DNA from: a bacterium
GTDB taxonomy: Bacteria > BMS3Abin14
DNA length: 64,000 nucleotides
Assembly: GCA_029210965.1 (NCBI GenBank)
Contig: JARGFZ010000004.1
Coordinates: 1 to 64,000, forward strand
Reading direction: 5' to 3'
Shown here: positions 32,496-48,713 of the stretch, piece by piece
Layout of the letters: each line of letters begins with the position of its first letter
Numbering within the stretch: position 1 is the first letter of the stretch
Position numbers and translations under genes: made by a program
Notes under the pieces: model-generated
Database searches by the model: none
The model's input: the letters and a program-made list of their open reading frames with translations, nothing else
What the model was told of the DNA's origin: nothing

Positions 32496-32513
32496 GGAAC
32501 TTTTCTCCTTTGG

Positions 32514-32611
32514 TAGGGTCGCACAATGTCCTGGCGGGACTTTGTGCTCCTCGGAAAACGAAAAGTGTCATTTTCGTTTTCCTCACAAGGGCGCATCGAG
32601 GATCGGCTGCC
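32514..32611. repeat. Cloverleaf repeat, copy A (partial)
   Basis: Part of the intergenic repeat family described in the findings. It begins TAGGGTCGCACAATGTCC, followed by hairpin GCACAATGTCC/GGGACTTTGTGC and hairpin GGAAAACGAAAA/TTTTCGTTTTCC. The right half is cut short at the stop codon of the permease gene. Confidence 0.85.
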
Positions 32612-34285
32612 CTATTCATCAGTGCTCCATGCCGCCTTTAGCATATTCCCGCCGATCCTCGATGCGATCAAAAGGAGGATGAAGGTGATCACGATCATCA
32701 GGAACGCCATGGCGGCGGCGATACCAAACTCCATGCCGCGGTGCCAGTTCAGATAAATACCGATGGGCAGCGTTTCCCAGCCTCCCCGGTAAAGGAATAT
32801 GGCAGTAGAGATCTCCTGGAACGCCATGATAAAGAACATCATCACACCGACGAGCACGCCTTTGAGGAGCAGAGGCAAAGATATGGTCATAAAAGTTCTG
32901 AGTCTGCCCGCGCCCGCCACTTCCGCGGCCTCCTCAAGAGAAACATCCAGCTGCAGGTAAGAGGCGTGCGCCATCCTCAAAAAGTATGGGAGTCGGCGAG
33001 CGAACAGGGCCAGAGGCATGATGATCCAGTACTTGGCCAGGGGTATGGTATCCCAAAATGCCAGCATGTAACCTACACCAATGGCGATACCAGGGAAAGC
33101 CAGCATCAGGGTGATGACAAAGTCGAGGGCATCTTTGCCCGGGACACGGGTGCGGACGATGATATAGGCGGCTGGAAGTCCAAAGGCGACCCCGAAGACC
33201 AGGGCCAGTCCGCTGAACAGGAAAGAGTTTTTGATCAGGAGCGGGCTTTCCAGGAGAATGAGTCTGAAGTTATCGAGGGTCCAGTAGGTGGGAAACGGTT
33301 CAAAGACCCATCTTCTGGAAAAGGCGGATAAACCCAGCACGATGGGGATCAGCAGGACAACGACGGCGATAAATATCAGGTAAGCGTATGCGCCCGCTTT
33401 CAGCAGCGGGCCCGGTTCGATCACCCTGCCTTCAGAGGTAGTTCCCTTGGAAAGGCCGGTATACTTTTTCTTTTCGACCCACCACCTGGCGAGCAGAAAG
33501 AGGGAGATGCAGATAACGGCAGAAACAACCACCGCCACGATCCCCATGTACTTGCGGTGCATATCTGTAAAATGATAGGCGATATTAATGTACGCCACCG
33601 AGGGAAGGAGATCCGTCTGCCCCAGGATCATTGGTGTGAGCCAGTCCGTGAAGGGCCACAGGAATACGAGGACGGCACCCGCCAGATAACTGGGGGTGCA
33701 CAGAGGCAGCGTTATTGTGATGAATCGCCGAAAGCCGCTGGCCCCCTCCACTTCGGCAGCTTCCTCAAAGGAAGGGTCGATGTTGGTAAAACCCGCCGAA
33801 AGACCGAGGACAATGAAAGGAAGCATGTGCAGGGATTGGACGAATACCAGCCCGTGCAGTCCGTATATGAAATTTACGGGCTTCTCGATGAGCCCTATCT
33901 GCATGAGCAGCAGGTTCATCGTACCGTACTTGCCGAAAAAGATGATGAACGCGAATACGCCGGCGAAAGCGGGCAGGACGATGGGCAAAAGGATGAGAGC
34001 TGTAAAAACAGTCTTTCCCCTGTGCCGGTATCTTGCCAGGATGTATGCCAGTGGCACCCCGAACACAGTGGTCGTCACGAGCAAAAGAGTACTGAGCAGC
34101 AGGGTATTGCCAAAGATCTTGAGATAATAGGTGTCCTTGAAGAACTCCAGGTAATTACCTATACCCCGGCCGTCAGTCCCGGTGAGGGTTAAACTTTCAC
34201 TGAGCAGAATGGAAAGCGGATAAATTATAAGGAAAGCAATGATCAACCACAGGACTGCTGCCAGAATGACGTTGCCTCGGGACAT
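32612..34285 (-). CDS. Fused double-domain ABC permease
   Basis: Inner-membrane permease of 557 residues containing two BPD_transp_1 domains in one chain, each with the EAA loop that docks the ATPase (FEEAAEVEGASGFRRFITITLPL in the first half; LEEAAEVAGAGRLR in the second). About twelve helices are seen. Fused permeases of this length occur in FbpB/AfuB iron(III) importers and in the PhnU2-type group annotated for 2-aminoethylphosphonate. The ATG at 34285 (MSRGNVIL) has AAGGTG upstream; a start at 34315 would lie in the repeat. The substrate cannot be decided from the sequence alone. Confidence 0.92.
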   Translation of the reverse strand: MSRGNVILAAVLWLIIAFLIIYPLSILLSESLTLTGTDGRGIGNYLEFFKDTYYLKIFGNTLLLSTLLLVTTTVFGVPLAYILARYRHRGKTVFTALILLPIVLPAFAGVFAFIIFFGKYGTMNLLLMQIGLIEKPVNFIYGLHGLVFVQSLHMLPFIVLGLSAGFTNIDPSFEEAAEVEGASGFRRFITITLPLCTPSYLAGAVLVFLWPFTDWLTPMILGQTDLLPSVAYINIAYHFTDMHRKYMGIVAVVVSAVICISLFLLARWWVEKKKYTGLSKGTTSEGRVIEPGPLLKAGAYAYLIFIAVVVLLIPIVLGLSAFSRRWVFEPFPTYWTLDNFRLILLESPLLIKNSFLFSGLALVFGVAFGLPAAYIIVRTRVPGKDALDFVITLMLAFPGIAIGVGYMLAFWDTIPLAKYWIIMPLALFARRLPYFLRMAHASYLQLDVSLEEAAEVAGAGRLRTFMTISLPLLLKGVLVGVMMFFIMAFQEISTAIFLYRGGWETLPIGIYLNWHRGMEFGIAAAMAFLMIVITFILLLIASRIGGNMLKAAWSTDE

Positions 34286-34300
34286 ATCACACCTTATCTT

Positions 34301-34472
34301 TAATAGGGTCGCCAAAGTCCGGGCGGGACTTTGGCTCTACGGGAAGGGAAAAGTGTCATTTGCCCTTCCCTCACGGATCGCTGACATTTTCCCGGTCATC
34401 GATCCGGGCGCCACTTCCAGGCGCGGCTACTGTTAATCGCAAAAGTCCGTGGGGCTTTTTACGAGGCCATCA
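34301..34472. repeat. Cloverleaf repeat, copy B
   Basis: Full-length but divergent copy. Hairpins from left to right: GCCAAAGTCC/GGGACTTTGGC, GGGAAGGGAAAA/TTTGCCCTTCCC, GGATCGCTGAC/GTCATCGATCC and GCGCC/GGCGC. The outer ends are TAGGGTCGC on the left and a diverged CTTTTTACGAGG on the right. It lies in the gap between the binding-protein gene and the permease gene. Confidence 0.85.
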
Positions 34473-34622: not shown

Positions 34623-35921
34623 TTACGGCGAGACAAGCAGTGCGCGGGCCTTGACTGCACCCAGGCGTGCCGCGGCATAATTGCCCTCATATTCGAAAAG
34701 TTTTCGGGCTTCGGCTATTTTCGCGGCAGCCTTTGTCACATTAATCTTTTCAGCTTTTGCCGCCTGAATCTCTCCCTCGACTTCCTCTATCAGGAACAGG
34801 CTGTTTTTCAGCTCGCCCCACTTCCGGTAGATCTCGTCCTCATACTTCTTGTTGACTTCGTCCCACCTATTTGCGGCGAGGTCCAGGTCGTACTCTATGA
34901 AGTCGACCTTCAGGTCCCAGAAGGAATCGACGCCCAGCGCCTGCGCGGCATGGGTGGCCATCTCGACGCCTTGCTTTTCCAGTTCGGAAAATTTAACGTC
35001 CGTGCTGGCTGCGAAGTAACGGCCTTTCAGTACGTATTTTTGCCCGTCCATGCTGAACAGCCAGTCCAGGAAGATCTTCCCCACCGCCTCGTTGGGCGCG
35101 CCTTTAAGCAAAGCCACAGCCTCCGGAACCAGGATCGTTTTTTCCGGGAGCAGGTCCCGCACAGGAAAACCATCTTTGCGTGCGGCCATTGCGTTCATCT
35201 GCGGCTGCGCCAATCCGATGGGAACTTCGCCGCGGGACACTAATTGCGTCGTATCCGTGCTGCCGGTGGAAAAGCGCGCTAAATTCGCCGCCAGCAATCT
35301 GAGATATTTCCATGCTTCATCTTCGCCAAAACCCTGTATGAGAATTTCAATGGCTTCATGCATTGTGCCGGAGGCATAGGGCAGCGTGTGCACGATGTTG
35401 CCCCTGTAGATGGGGTTGAGCAGATCGTTCCATGTTTTCGGAGGCGGCAATTTTAAGGATTTTAATACCTTTTCGTTGTACAGGTTGGTAACGATCCAGG
35501 GCGCGAAACAGGTCCACAGATCACCCTTATCCTTTACCTTCATACCGTGCCATGCGGCAGGAACCTTATCTGAACCCTTTGCCTTGTACGGTACAATAAG
35601 CCCCTCTTTCTTTAAAACTTCATGGGCCGGAGCTCCTGCGCCCAGGAAAATGTCAGCATCCGGTTTGCCATTCCATGATCTCACTTTATCCAGGCACACC
35701 GGCCAACCGCCCGGCCGAACGAAGGTTATGTCCACATCCTTACCGTAGGTCTCCTTGTAGTACGCTTTGAAACCCTCGGTCAGGCTGGCGGATAACTCCT
35801 TGTAAACGGGACCGACCCAGCCGAGTTTATCTGCGGCCTGTGCCTGCGTCGCAAAGGCTGGCAACAGCAGCAGCATTCCAAGTGCTGTTACGATCGCTGT
35901 GAGCGATATAAACTTTCTCAT
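34623..35921 (-). CDS. ABC importer substrate-binding protein
   Basis: Periplasmic type-2 solute-binding protein, 432 residues. A Sec signal peptide (MRKFISLTAIVTALGMLLLL...AQA) is followed by the fold seen in Fe3+ and aminoethylphosphonate binders: PDADIFLGAGAPAHEVLKKEG, PKTWNDLLNPIYRG, GEVPIGLAQPQMNAMA and LLKGAPNEAVGKIFLDWLF. The last 60 residues form an extra helical, lysine/alanine-rich tail. The ATG at 35921 has an excellent GGGGAGGTCAAA ribosome site. It is the first gene of the importer operon; a palindromic operator-like motif lies 400 bp upstream. Confidence 0.92.
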   Translation of the reverse strand: MRKFISLTAIVTALGMLLLLPAFATQAQAADKLGWVGPVYKELSASLTEGFKAYYKETYGKDVDITFVRPGGWPVCLDKVRSWNGKPDADIFLGAGAPAHEVLKKEGLIVPYKAKGSDKVPAAWHGMKVKDKGDLWTCFAPWIVTNLYNEKVLKSLKLPPPKTWNDLLNPIYRGNIVHTLPYASGTMHEAIEILIQGFGEDEAWKYLRLLAANLARFSTGSTDTTQLVSRGEVPIGLAQPQMNAMAARKDGFPVRDLLPEKTILVPEAVALLKGAPNEAVGKIFLDWLFSMDGQKYVLKGRYFAASTDVKFSELEKQGVEMATHAAQALGVDSFWDLKVDFIEYDLDLAANRWDEVNKKYEDEIYRKWGELKNSLFLIEEVEGEIQAAKAEKINVTKAAAKIAEARKLFEYEGNYAAARLGAVKARALLVSP

Positions 35922-36003
35922 TTTGACCTCCCCATAAGCATCACTGTCACATTTAAAAGAACAAATAGTTCCTCTACCCCAACCTCCTGCGTGATCCCCC
36001 GCC

Positions 36004-36017
36004 ATCACCTCCTTTCT
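36004..36017 (-). promoter_or_regulatory. Perfect anti-SD-complementary string
   Basis: The plus strand reads ATCACCTCCTTTCT, identical to the 3' tail of bacterial 16S rRNA. On the minus strand this is AGAAAGGAGGTGAT, a maximal Shine-Dalgarno, 84 bases before the chosen start of the binding protein and in frame with an ATG at 36005 (spacing is too short for normal use). It could serve a leader peptide or ribosome standby site. Confidence 0.5.
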
Positions 36018-36200
36018 GTAAAGTACCTGTTAGATTAATCCAGACACAAAAAAACCGGACGTATCCCAGCAGTTATTTGCTTCGGCAGCCCGGCAATCTT
36101 CTTCCCCAAAAGATGTGTATTAATGATGAATTGAGAAGACCCGATGTTTTCCGCCCTCGCCTCACAGCGAGTTTGGCTTTATCGGCATATCATCTACAAT

Positions 36201-41778: not shown

Positions 41779-41944
41779 CAATTATGATAAAGTCGCAAAA
41801 AGTCCAATCCGGGACTTTTCGCTCCACGGAAAGGGAAAAGCGTCGTTTTCCCTTTCCTTACAAATCAATGACTTACAGTGCGAGTCATTGATTTGGGCGC
41901 CCCGCGCGGGGCGCATTGATGACTTTTTGCGAGTCCATCAATTA
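41779..41944. repeat. Cloverleaf repeat, copy C (most symmetrical)
   Basis: The outer ends GTCGCAAAAAGTCC and GACTTTTTGCGAG are inverted. Inside are hairpins with arms GGAAAGGGAAAA/TTTTCCCTTTCC, ATCAATGACT/AGTCATTGAT and GCGCCCCG/CGGGGCGC. It lies upstream of the AOR operon and beside the small-peptide unit. Confidence 0.9.
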
Positions 41945-41954
41945 TAAAAAGGGG

Positions 41955-42974: not shown

Positions 42975-43107
42975 GGACAAGAGCTATCCTTTCCCGCCAG
43001 CAAGTCCTGCATCATTACAATCAGGGGATAGATCGGGGTCCAACACCACCACTTTCCGGAGGCTGAGATGGTGGGTCTTCGGGGCGAAGTCACGCCAAAA
43101 CCGTGAT

Positions 43108-43626
43108 CAAAAGGCAGGAGGGGTCCTCTACGTTTTTTTTGACGACAACCAGCGCCTGTACGGGCACAGCGACTCCCTGCCGCAGGACCTGGACGTCTTT
43201 CCCCTGACGAGGAACCTCAGGAACACAAAACCGATCCACCAACTGGCCAGCACCTATTATGCGGGGGGCAAACTGGTGGGCGCCGGGCCCGAGGGCAGGG
43301 AACCGAAGCTGGTCAAAGCCGATTCCGATGAGGCTGTCGTCAGGGAGGTCAGCCGTATTCTCAAGACTCTCGTCGGGGAGGAGAAGGTGCATCCGGAGGA
43401 TATCGCCGTTCTCACGGGCCGGTCGCGGGAGAAGAGCGTTCTTGGCAAGGACGATGTGATCGGGGCTTATTCTGTGTGCTGCGGGCGCACCGCCGAGAGG
43501 GGCAAGGTGGTTTTCGACTCGATCCGCCGCTTCAAGGGTCTCGAGCGGCCGGTGGTCATCCTCGTGGAACTGGAGGAGGTCCTGGACAAGGGGGTCAGGG
43601 CAGGAAATTGTCAATTCCCGGCATAA
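43108..43626 (+). pseudogene. Superfamily I helicase remnant
   Basis: The frame reads GGVLYVFFDDNQRLY (helicase motif III-like), then FPLTRNLRNTKPIHQLA (motif IV), HPEDIAVLTGRSREK, and IRRFKGLERPVVILVEL (motif V/VI). It then stops after an unrelated end. These are the C-terminal half motifs of a UvrD/Rep-like helicase of the kind fused to nuclease-related domains. No start codon, Walker A or Walker B is present upstream; the 5' part is gone and a 28-base palindromic string precedes it. A broken fragment. Confidence 0.75.
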
Positions 43627-45536: not shown

Positions 45537-45689
45537 GGCCCCGATAACGAAGAGCCGTTGATTCGTCAGTGCGAAGTCACGCGAAAGGCGTGATTGAAAA
45601 ACGAGGTTGTCAGCCGAAGTCTCGTACGCAGGTTGGAACTGACCCCACGGTTTCCGGCCTGTCCCCCGGAAGGTCCCCGAGATGCGCGG

Positions 45690-47159: not shown

Positions 47160-47258
47160 GATCGATCCTTTCGCTATCTGACTCCTTAATGGGAAGATAG
47201 TGAAGATATTAAGGTCAGTTATCTCCTTTATAATTTAAAAACAGACGTTACAATGCTG

Positions 47259-47412
47259 ATGACTTCGTAAAAAGTCATCAATGCGCCCCGGAGGGGGCGC
47301 CCAGATCAATGACTGCGGATGTAAGTCACTGATTTGTAAGGAAAGTGAAAATGACACTTTTCGCTTTCCGAGGAGCAAAAAGCCGATTACGGACTTTTTG
47401 CGACCCTATCAG
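47259..47412. repeat. Cloverleaf repeat, copy D (inverted)
   Basis: Reverse-complement orientation relative to copies A-C: GATGACTTCGTAAAAAGTC, then GCGCCCC/GGGGGCGC, then ATCAATGACT/AGTCACTGAT, then GGAAAGTGAAAA/TTTTCGCTTTCC, and finally GGACTTTTTGCGACCCTA. Confidence 0.9.
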
Positions 47413-48409: not shown

Positions 48410-48713
48410 AACAATAAGTCCGGCTTTTCAACAAAGTATTATTCTTTTGCCTCTGGTAGGATGCACTCGCTATCTAGAGAAAGAGGCTATCTCTGGAACA
48501 CAAAACACTGAAAAACTCAGGCCAGGAACGTTGATGACTTCGCGAAAAGTCATCAACGCGCCCCGTGGGGGGCGCCCGAATCGATGACCGGCATCGTGGG
48601 TCATTGATTCGTGAGGAAAGCGGAAATGACACTTTTCGCTTTCCGAGGAGCAAATAGCCGATAACGGACTTTTTGCGACCCTATTATAGTTGGATTTTCG
48701 AGAGGAGAAAAAA
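48410..48713. other. Intergenic with cloverleaf copy E
   Basis: 304 bases with no gene other than the repeat listed separately. Confidence 0.5.
48531..48685. repeat. Cloverleaf repeat, copy E (inverted)
   Basis: TTGATGACTTCGCGAAAAGT, then GCGCCCC/GGGGCGC, TCGATGACC/GGTCATTGA, GGAAAGCGGAAA/TTTTCGCTTTCC, and GGACTTTTTGCGACCCTA at the end. Close to copy D in both sequence and orientation. Confidence 0.9.

Follow-up and report, generated by a model that had tools for sequence, protein, structure and literature searches.

A new family of five-hairpin intergenic repeats, very probably MITEs moved by an IS1182-related transposase

Results and Discussion

The window analyzed here (the whole stretch of 64,000 nucleotides from one bacterial contig) contains five copies of a 154-bp repeat without genes. 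We describe the repeat as a MITE family that is new and well supported and for which there is a good candidate transposase. Very probably, its ends are recognized and moved by a DUF772/DDE transposase related to IS1182. A covariance model with 14 copies as input recovers all five window copies as members of the family. The copies that the original prediction had placed at 32514, 34301, 41779, 47259, and 48531 are all real (61 to 184.5 bits) and lie in the two orientations it had given, with those at 32512, 34302, and 41786 on the plus strand and those at 47258 and 48533 on the minus strand. The copy predicted at 41779 to 41944 is present with shifted borders: the element proper spans 41786 to 41939 (GATAAAGTCGC...GCGAGTCCATC), and an AATTAT duplication lies outside it on each side. 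Its ends, GAT...ATC with the inward motif GAYNNNNTCGCAAAAAGTC, are inverted. The sequence bears out the prediction on the inverted outer ends, the order of the hairpins, and the compensating arms that it cited, and the predicted three to four inner hairpins become five hairpins in series once both ends are counted, two of the five containing the element ends. The features are as follows.

41780 to 41785, no strand: target-site duplication, left copy AATTAT; the identical hexamer flanks GAT...ATC on both sides
41786 to 41939, plus strand: full-length 154-bp element, young subfamily (184.5 bits; 94 to 99% identity to the other best genomic copies)
41795 to 41822, plus strand: left hairpin GCAAAAAGTCC/GGGACTTTTCGC, the 5' arm doubling as left terminal repeat
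41828 to 41857, plus strand: hairpin 2, GGAAAGGGAAAA/TTTTCCCTTTCC (fold and covariation)
41861 to 41895, plus strand: hairpin 3, CAAATCAATGACT/AGTCATTGATTTG (fold and covariation)
41897 to 41914, plus strand: hairpin 4, GCGCCCC/GGGGCGC (fold and covariation)
41918 to 41939, plus strand: right-end hairpin and right terminal repeat (inward GATGGACTCGCAAAAAGTC)
41940 to 41945, no strand: target-site duplication, right copy AATTAT, same hexamer as the left copy
47258 to 47410, minus strand: full-length copy, older subfamily, with decayed duplications AACGCT/AGCATT (155.5 bits)
48533 to 48685, minus strand: full-length copy, older subfamily, with decayed duplications AACTAT/AACGTT (154.8 bits)
34302 to 34471 (model match 34302 to 34447), plus strand: diverged copy with an insertion or extra sequence ahead of the right end (78 bits)
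32512 to 32660, plus strand: degenerate copy, clear only in the left hairpin and hairpin 2, about 32511 to 32588 (61 bits)

Two other repeats were seen in the window. An inverted repeat, GCATCGAGGATCGGC...GCCGATCCTCGATGC, lies at 32590 to 32715, where a permease gene ends, beside the degenerate 32512 copy. The segments 43065 to 43112 and 45552 to 45599 are a pair of direct repeats of 48 nt with 73% identity (GCGAAGTCACGC...CGTGAT).

Copy number and spread among genomes

The five copies originally counted are a small part of the family. In the window's own 3.19-Mb genome (G000) we observe at least 150 covariance-model matches and 309 occurrences of the end motif GAYNNNNTCGCAAAAAGTC, versus 22 of a reversed control. 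Young copies reach 99% identity, and copies decay and truncate freely. One copy stands at the same place in G001 and G000 and is thus older than the split of those genomes. The element is present in 11 of 12 genomes examined of the phylum (one family), at 5 to about 155 copies each, with no element found by the covariance model in the complete genome G003 of the same phylum. In the rest of the domain, weak model matches appear in 3 of 374 genomes. Plasmid and phage collections gave no match. IMG/VR likewise had none for the type A left end, and a related end brought up a few partial relatives there. Three IMG/VR contigs (L268, L269, and L270) contain a stretch that opens with TTGATGGCTTCGCAAAAAGTCC and has a GGCGTACGAAAAGTACGCC palindrome, which looks like a further relative on viral contigs.

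Composite elements also occur, with repeated cassettes of left hairpin, hairpin 2, hairpin 3, and hairpin 4 nested between the ends (L120 10002-10415; L072 6192-6460 and 7562-7863; L067 14311-14543; L197 990-1290). At G000:C26 22810-23121, a tandem pair of similar-scoring elements has a common AATATT, as if one had inserted in the other's duplication or unequal exchange had taken place.

Evidence for mobility

For the duplication count, 75 full-length copies were extracted from 2.0 Mb of the 3.19-Mb genome and the 72 better ones were used. Identical hexamers stand directly outside GAT/ATC in 49 of these 72, versus a mean of 4.5 and a maximum of 13 matching in 2000 permutations of the flanks. 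The duplicated hexamers are of 19 kinds with the consensus AANNTT, and some duplications measure 7 or 8 bp. We also observe one clean empty site: the element sits in the sister genome G001 between ...GTGGAAAGT and AAAGTAGAAAGGG (L034), and G000 reads GTGGAAAGTAGAAAGGG (L085). A second candidate empty site in G001 was not clean.

Shorter forms are informative about the ends. G009 harbors many elements of ~45 bp in which just a 7-base loop lies between the ends, with flanks AATCTT, AAAGTT, AATGTT, and others, and one ~45-bp end-only element with identical flanks is found in G000 (C5:63597). GACTTTT is repeated in the left hairpin and at the right end, and a deletion between these repeats is the probable origin of the short forms. 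They appear to have moved as such, because their duplications differ, and because end-only elements also carry duplications, only the ends seem to be needed for movement. In G009, ends that stand alone were also searched for a large autonomous element, and none was found.

The family is thus 154 bp long (below the limit of about 300 bp for MITEs) and noncoding, with terminal inverted repeats, target-site duplications of mostly 6 to 7 bp, an empty site, and an autonomous relative with matching ends. Of the two options left by the original prediction, the structured mobile element is the one that these features and the transposase clade described below bear out.

A candidate transposase with matching ends

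A transposase gene with the same ends, proposed alongside the original prediction as a check, was found in an IS1182-like clade that bears the same terminal motif. In G006, a 520-aa DUF772/DDE protein (DDE_Tnp_1 gene) lies between GATGGACCCGCAATTAGTC and GACGGCATCGCAAAAAGTATC, and at the right end all specified bases of the motif are present up to AAAAAGT. The second-best match to this protein among 386 genomes (61% identity) comes from a different phylum, in G370, where the insertion sequence ends in GATGGCTTCGTAAGAAGTC. G370 has also amplified a 153-bp hairpin MITE, and the right ends of the two agree in 19 of 19 bases. More distant members of the clade, in G130 and G146 (39 to 40% identity), show the same kind of ends, with exact 6- to 7-bp duplications (AAACATT, AAATCTA, and AGCTTT), and the insertion sequences of G006 and G370 show no clean duplication (AACCTT/AATATT and AATCCT/TTCTTT, respectively). 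The MITE and the transposase clade agree in duplication length, target type, and end motif. Against NCBIfam NF033551 (IS1182), four proteins score 116, 159, 184, and 190 bits, short of the cutoff of 270; the clade is thus related to IS1182 but lies outside the curated family and is unassigned.

The G006 copy is probably inactive, because about 78 aa, including the region of the conserved YR..IE motif, are missing from the protein. G009 and G010 hold transposase fragments only, so the copies found within the phylum are all defective, and in G000 there is no homologue of the G006 transposase at an E value of ≤1e-15. Given these defective copies and none in the window's own genome, movement of the element in trans by the clade's transposase is what we infer from the sequences. 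An active copy is likely to have been present recently, and the young copies in G000, together with the missing homologue, point toward a transposase source that was recently lost or is unassembled.

A self-comparison of 1.23 Mb for multicopy insertion sequences gave, as long high-identity matches, only a 248-bp MITE, the composite elements, and an EF-Tu duplication. The first is a second MITE-like family of the same genome, about 248 bp long with ends TAGCCCGG...GCGGGCTA and copies 89 to 98% identical (L066 12068-12315, L079 17353-17604, L081 17353-17603, L085 15029-15280, and L093 8087-8336). The EF-Tu gene has two 99.8% identical copies there (L068 11448-12663 and L069 8223-9439).

In the mechanism that we propose, a DUF772/DDE transposase, IS1182-related but below the curated cutoff, would recognize the element ends, for which the putative recognition consensus is GAY-N4-TCGCAAAAAGTC, read inward. 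The enzyme would cut with a 6- to 7-bp stagger at AANNTT-like targets, mostly in intergenic DNA, and, once the element is inserted, gap repair would produce the duplication. The ends alone would suffice for movement, leaving the interior hairpins as passengers or accessory structures. Such a model, a plain MITE, gives no reason for the constant presence of a row of covarying hairpins in the interior.

Covariation of the hairpins and its possible causes

The 41786 copy folds far beyond chance when compared with shuffled sequence (RNA z of -7.9, DNA z of -8.0). The main covariation alignment covers 11 genomes and 33 diverse copies. In it, 94% of the stem cells are paired, and 14 pairs show changes on both sides, amounting to 44 compensated cells; shuffled controls give 10.1 (SD, 2.6), and sliding the partner gives no more than 6. 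A set of 102 copies gives 76 compensated cells (75 over distinct rows), with a shuffled mean of 16.9 and a maximum of 27. The earlier statement that base pairing is conserved more than sequence therefore holds. The cloverleaf fold does not: the left and right-end hairpins have two covarying pairs each and the end-to-end stem has one, which favors local end hairpins, and five consecutive hairpins over a tRNA-like closed cloverleaf.

The further step taken in the original prediction, from covariation to a fold that matters, is less secure, since the covariation, though real, is of a kind that template switching can also produce (PMC8794818). Two causes are possible: selection on copies that are active or still moving, and template switching, in which one arm is copied anew from its partner. 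Of 51 variants confined to a single copy, 10 are compensated changes, as are 5 of the 24 shared ones, and this similar share does not decide between the two.

Template switching during replication could thus keep the stems perfect in a neutral passenger by copying arm onto arm, the hairpins themselves having no function. This explanation is compatible with a MITE, and we rate it at slightly below an even chance. Double changes do occur among the copy-private variants, and switching between hairpin arms can both create and repair hairpins (PMC8794818). However, another phylum repeats the multihairpin layout at nearly equal length with largely different hairpin sequences, and a purely neutral process need not keep such a recurring layout.

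That recurrence is seen in a wider group of related elements. The 153-bp element of G370, found by the covariance model, has the same hairpin plan with largely different hairpin sequences and is flanked by AATCTT, AATAAT, ATCTTT, and others. In G103, a genome of the same genus as G370, elements of about 115 to 210 bp have ends GATGGTGTCGTAAAAAGTC, some with clear duplications, and other palindromes inside (CCCTTCGAC...GGCTCAGG). G000 itself contains a degenerate 153-bp-type element (L071 10952-11109). Across the group, ends and duplication stay constant, and the interior varies but remains hairpin-rich. It is conceivable, and to us a rather unlikely possibility, that these form a cross-phylum superfamily of MITEs driven by IS1182-like transposases, in which ends and duplication stay constant and hairpin sequences are replaced while the row is kept, hairpins being required in the mobile DNA. 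If so, the hairpins, for example as cruciforms or in single-stranded form, may aid transposition or protect an intermediate, and structural covariation would arise at the DNA level. In a third lineage, G232 (L222 215-356 and L223 225-365), we observe a 142-bp relative with the order left hairpin, second hairpin, and CAAATCAA/TTGATTTG hairpin; its ends differ (CTGAAAAAGTCC) and duplications were not seen.

We consider unlikely a dispersed functional RNA, the other option of the original prediction, in which transcripts through the copies would adopt a conserved fold and act on neighboring mRNAs by processing, termination, or regulation, with mobility only spreading the copies. Its appeal lies in the significant covariation, the very stable fold, the mostly intergenic position of the copies, and the precedent of NEMIS transcripts processed by RNase III (PMC2229807). 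Yet on a rough gene map the copies use all gap types (38 tandem, 10 divergent, and 5 convergent), and their orientation relative to tandem genes is random (19:19). In the stems, A-C mismatches outnumber G-U pairs (126 versus 56) and both strands fold equally well, with no convincing RNA strand preference, so that of the features expected of a functional RNA we find covariation beyond controls and neither gene-strand bias nor a preference of G-U over A-C. Rfam 15 at the gathering threshold has no match at any of the five window copies, and the free decay and truncation of copies also argue against this reading. A cis-RNA role is unsupported, and significant covariation in repeats is, taken by itself, no evidence of functional RNA. 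Elsewhere in the window, 36080 to 36186 (minus strand) matches the c-di-GMP-I-GGC riboswitch (59.8 bits; gathering score, 59 bits) upstream of an ABC transporter solute-binding-protein gene (34623 to 36008).

REPs are not known to leave a staggered-cut duplication, so the duplications seen here already contradict REP/REPIN-type palindromes mobilized by a RAYT (Y1) transposase, an explanation that is highly improbable even though the element is palindromic, intergenic, and high in copy number and 8 of the 12 genomes encode Y1 transposases: the flanks of six Y1 loci contain no element ends, and G003 has Y1 genes without the element. Integrase-core (rve) transposases were also considered as movers and set aside, as none in the phylum has the element ends as its own termini.

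Our preferred reading, a MITE moved by an IS1182-related transposase, connects one specific clade of transposases with a repeat that is abundant and unannotated. With hundreds of copies, and the 45-bp forms as built-in controls, the family offers a natural set in which to weigh selection on structure against template-switch repair.

Comparison with known repeat systems

Correia/NEMIS repeats of Neisseria are non-autonomous, about 107 or 155 bp long, with terminal inverted repeats, target duplications, and a base-paired interior (PMC2229807). They share with the present family a similar size class, inverted ends, duplications, and a shorter form with the same ends (PMC2229807). They differ in their TA termini and other sequences, whereas here we observe 6- to 7-bp AANNTT duplications, five serial hairpins, and a 45-bp end-only form. 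The bcr1 repeats of the Bacillus cereus group (about 155 bp, up to 130 copies) are likewise similar in size, intergenic location, mobile-element features, and conserved fold (PMC6542083, PMC2267715). They are, however, TTTAT-associated, confined to one species group, and proposed to move in a manner resembling site-specific recombination, while the family described here has DDE-type duplications, a transposase candidate, and relatives in other phyla. RUP of Streptococcus pneumoniae is a MITE for which IS630-Spn1, with similar ends, has been proposed as the mover in trans (PMC2229807); it differs in its IS630 clade and TA target, the clade here being IS1182-like. The IS1182 family itself is the nearest curated family to the candidate transposase (116 to 190 bits), from which the four proteins tested are set apart by scores below 270 bits and by ends and a duplication length that are the clade's own.
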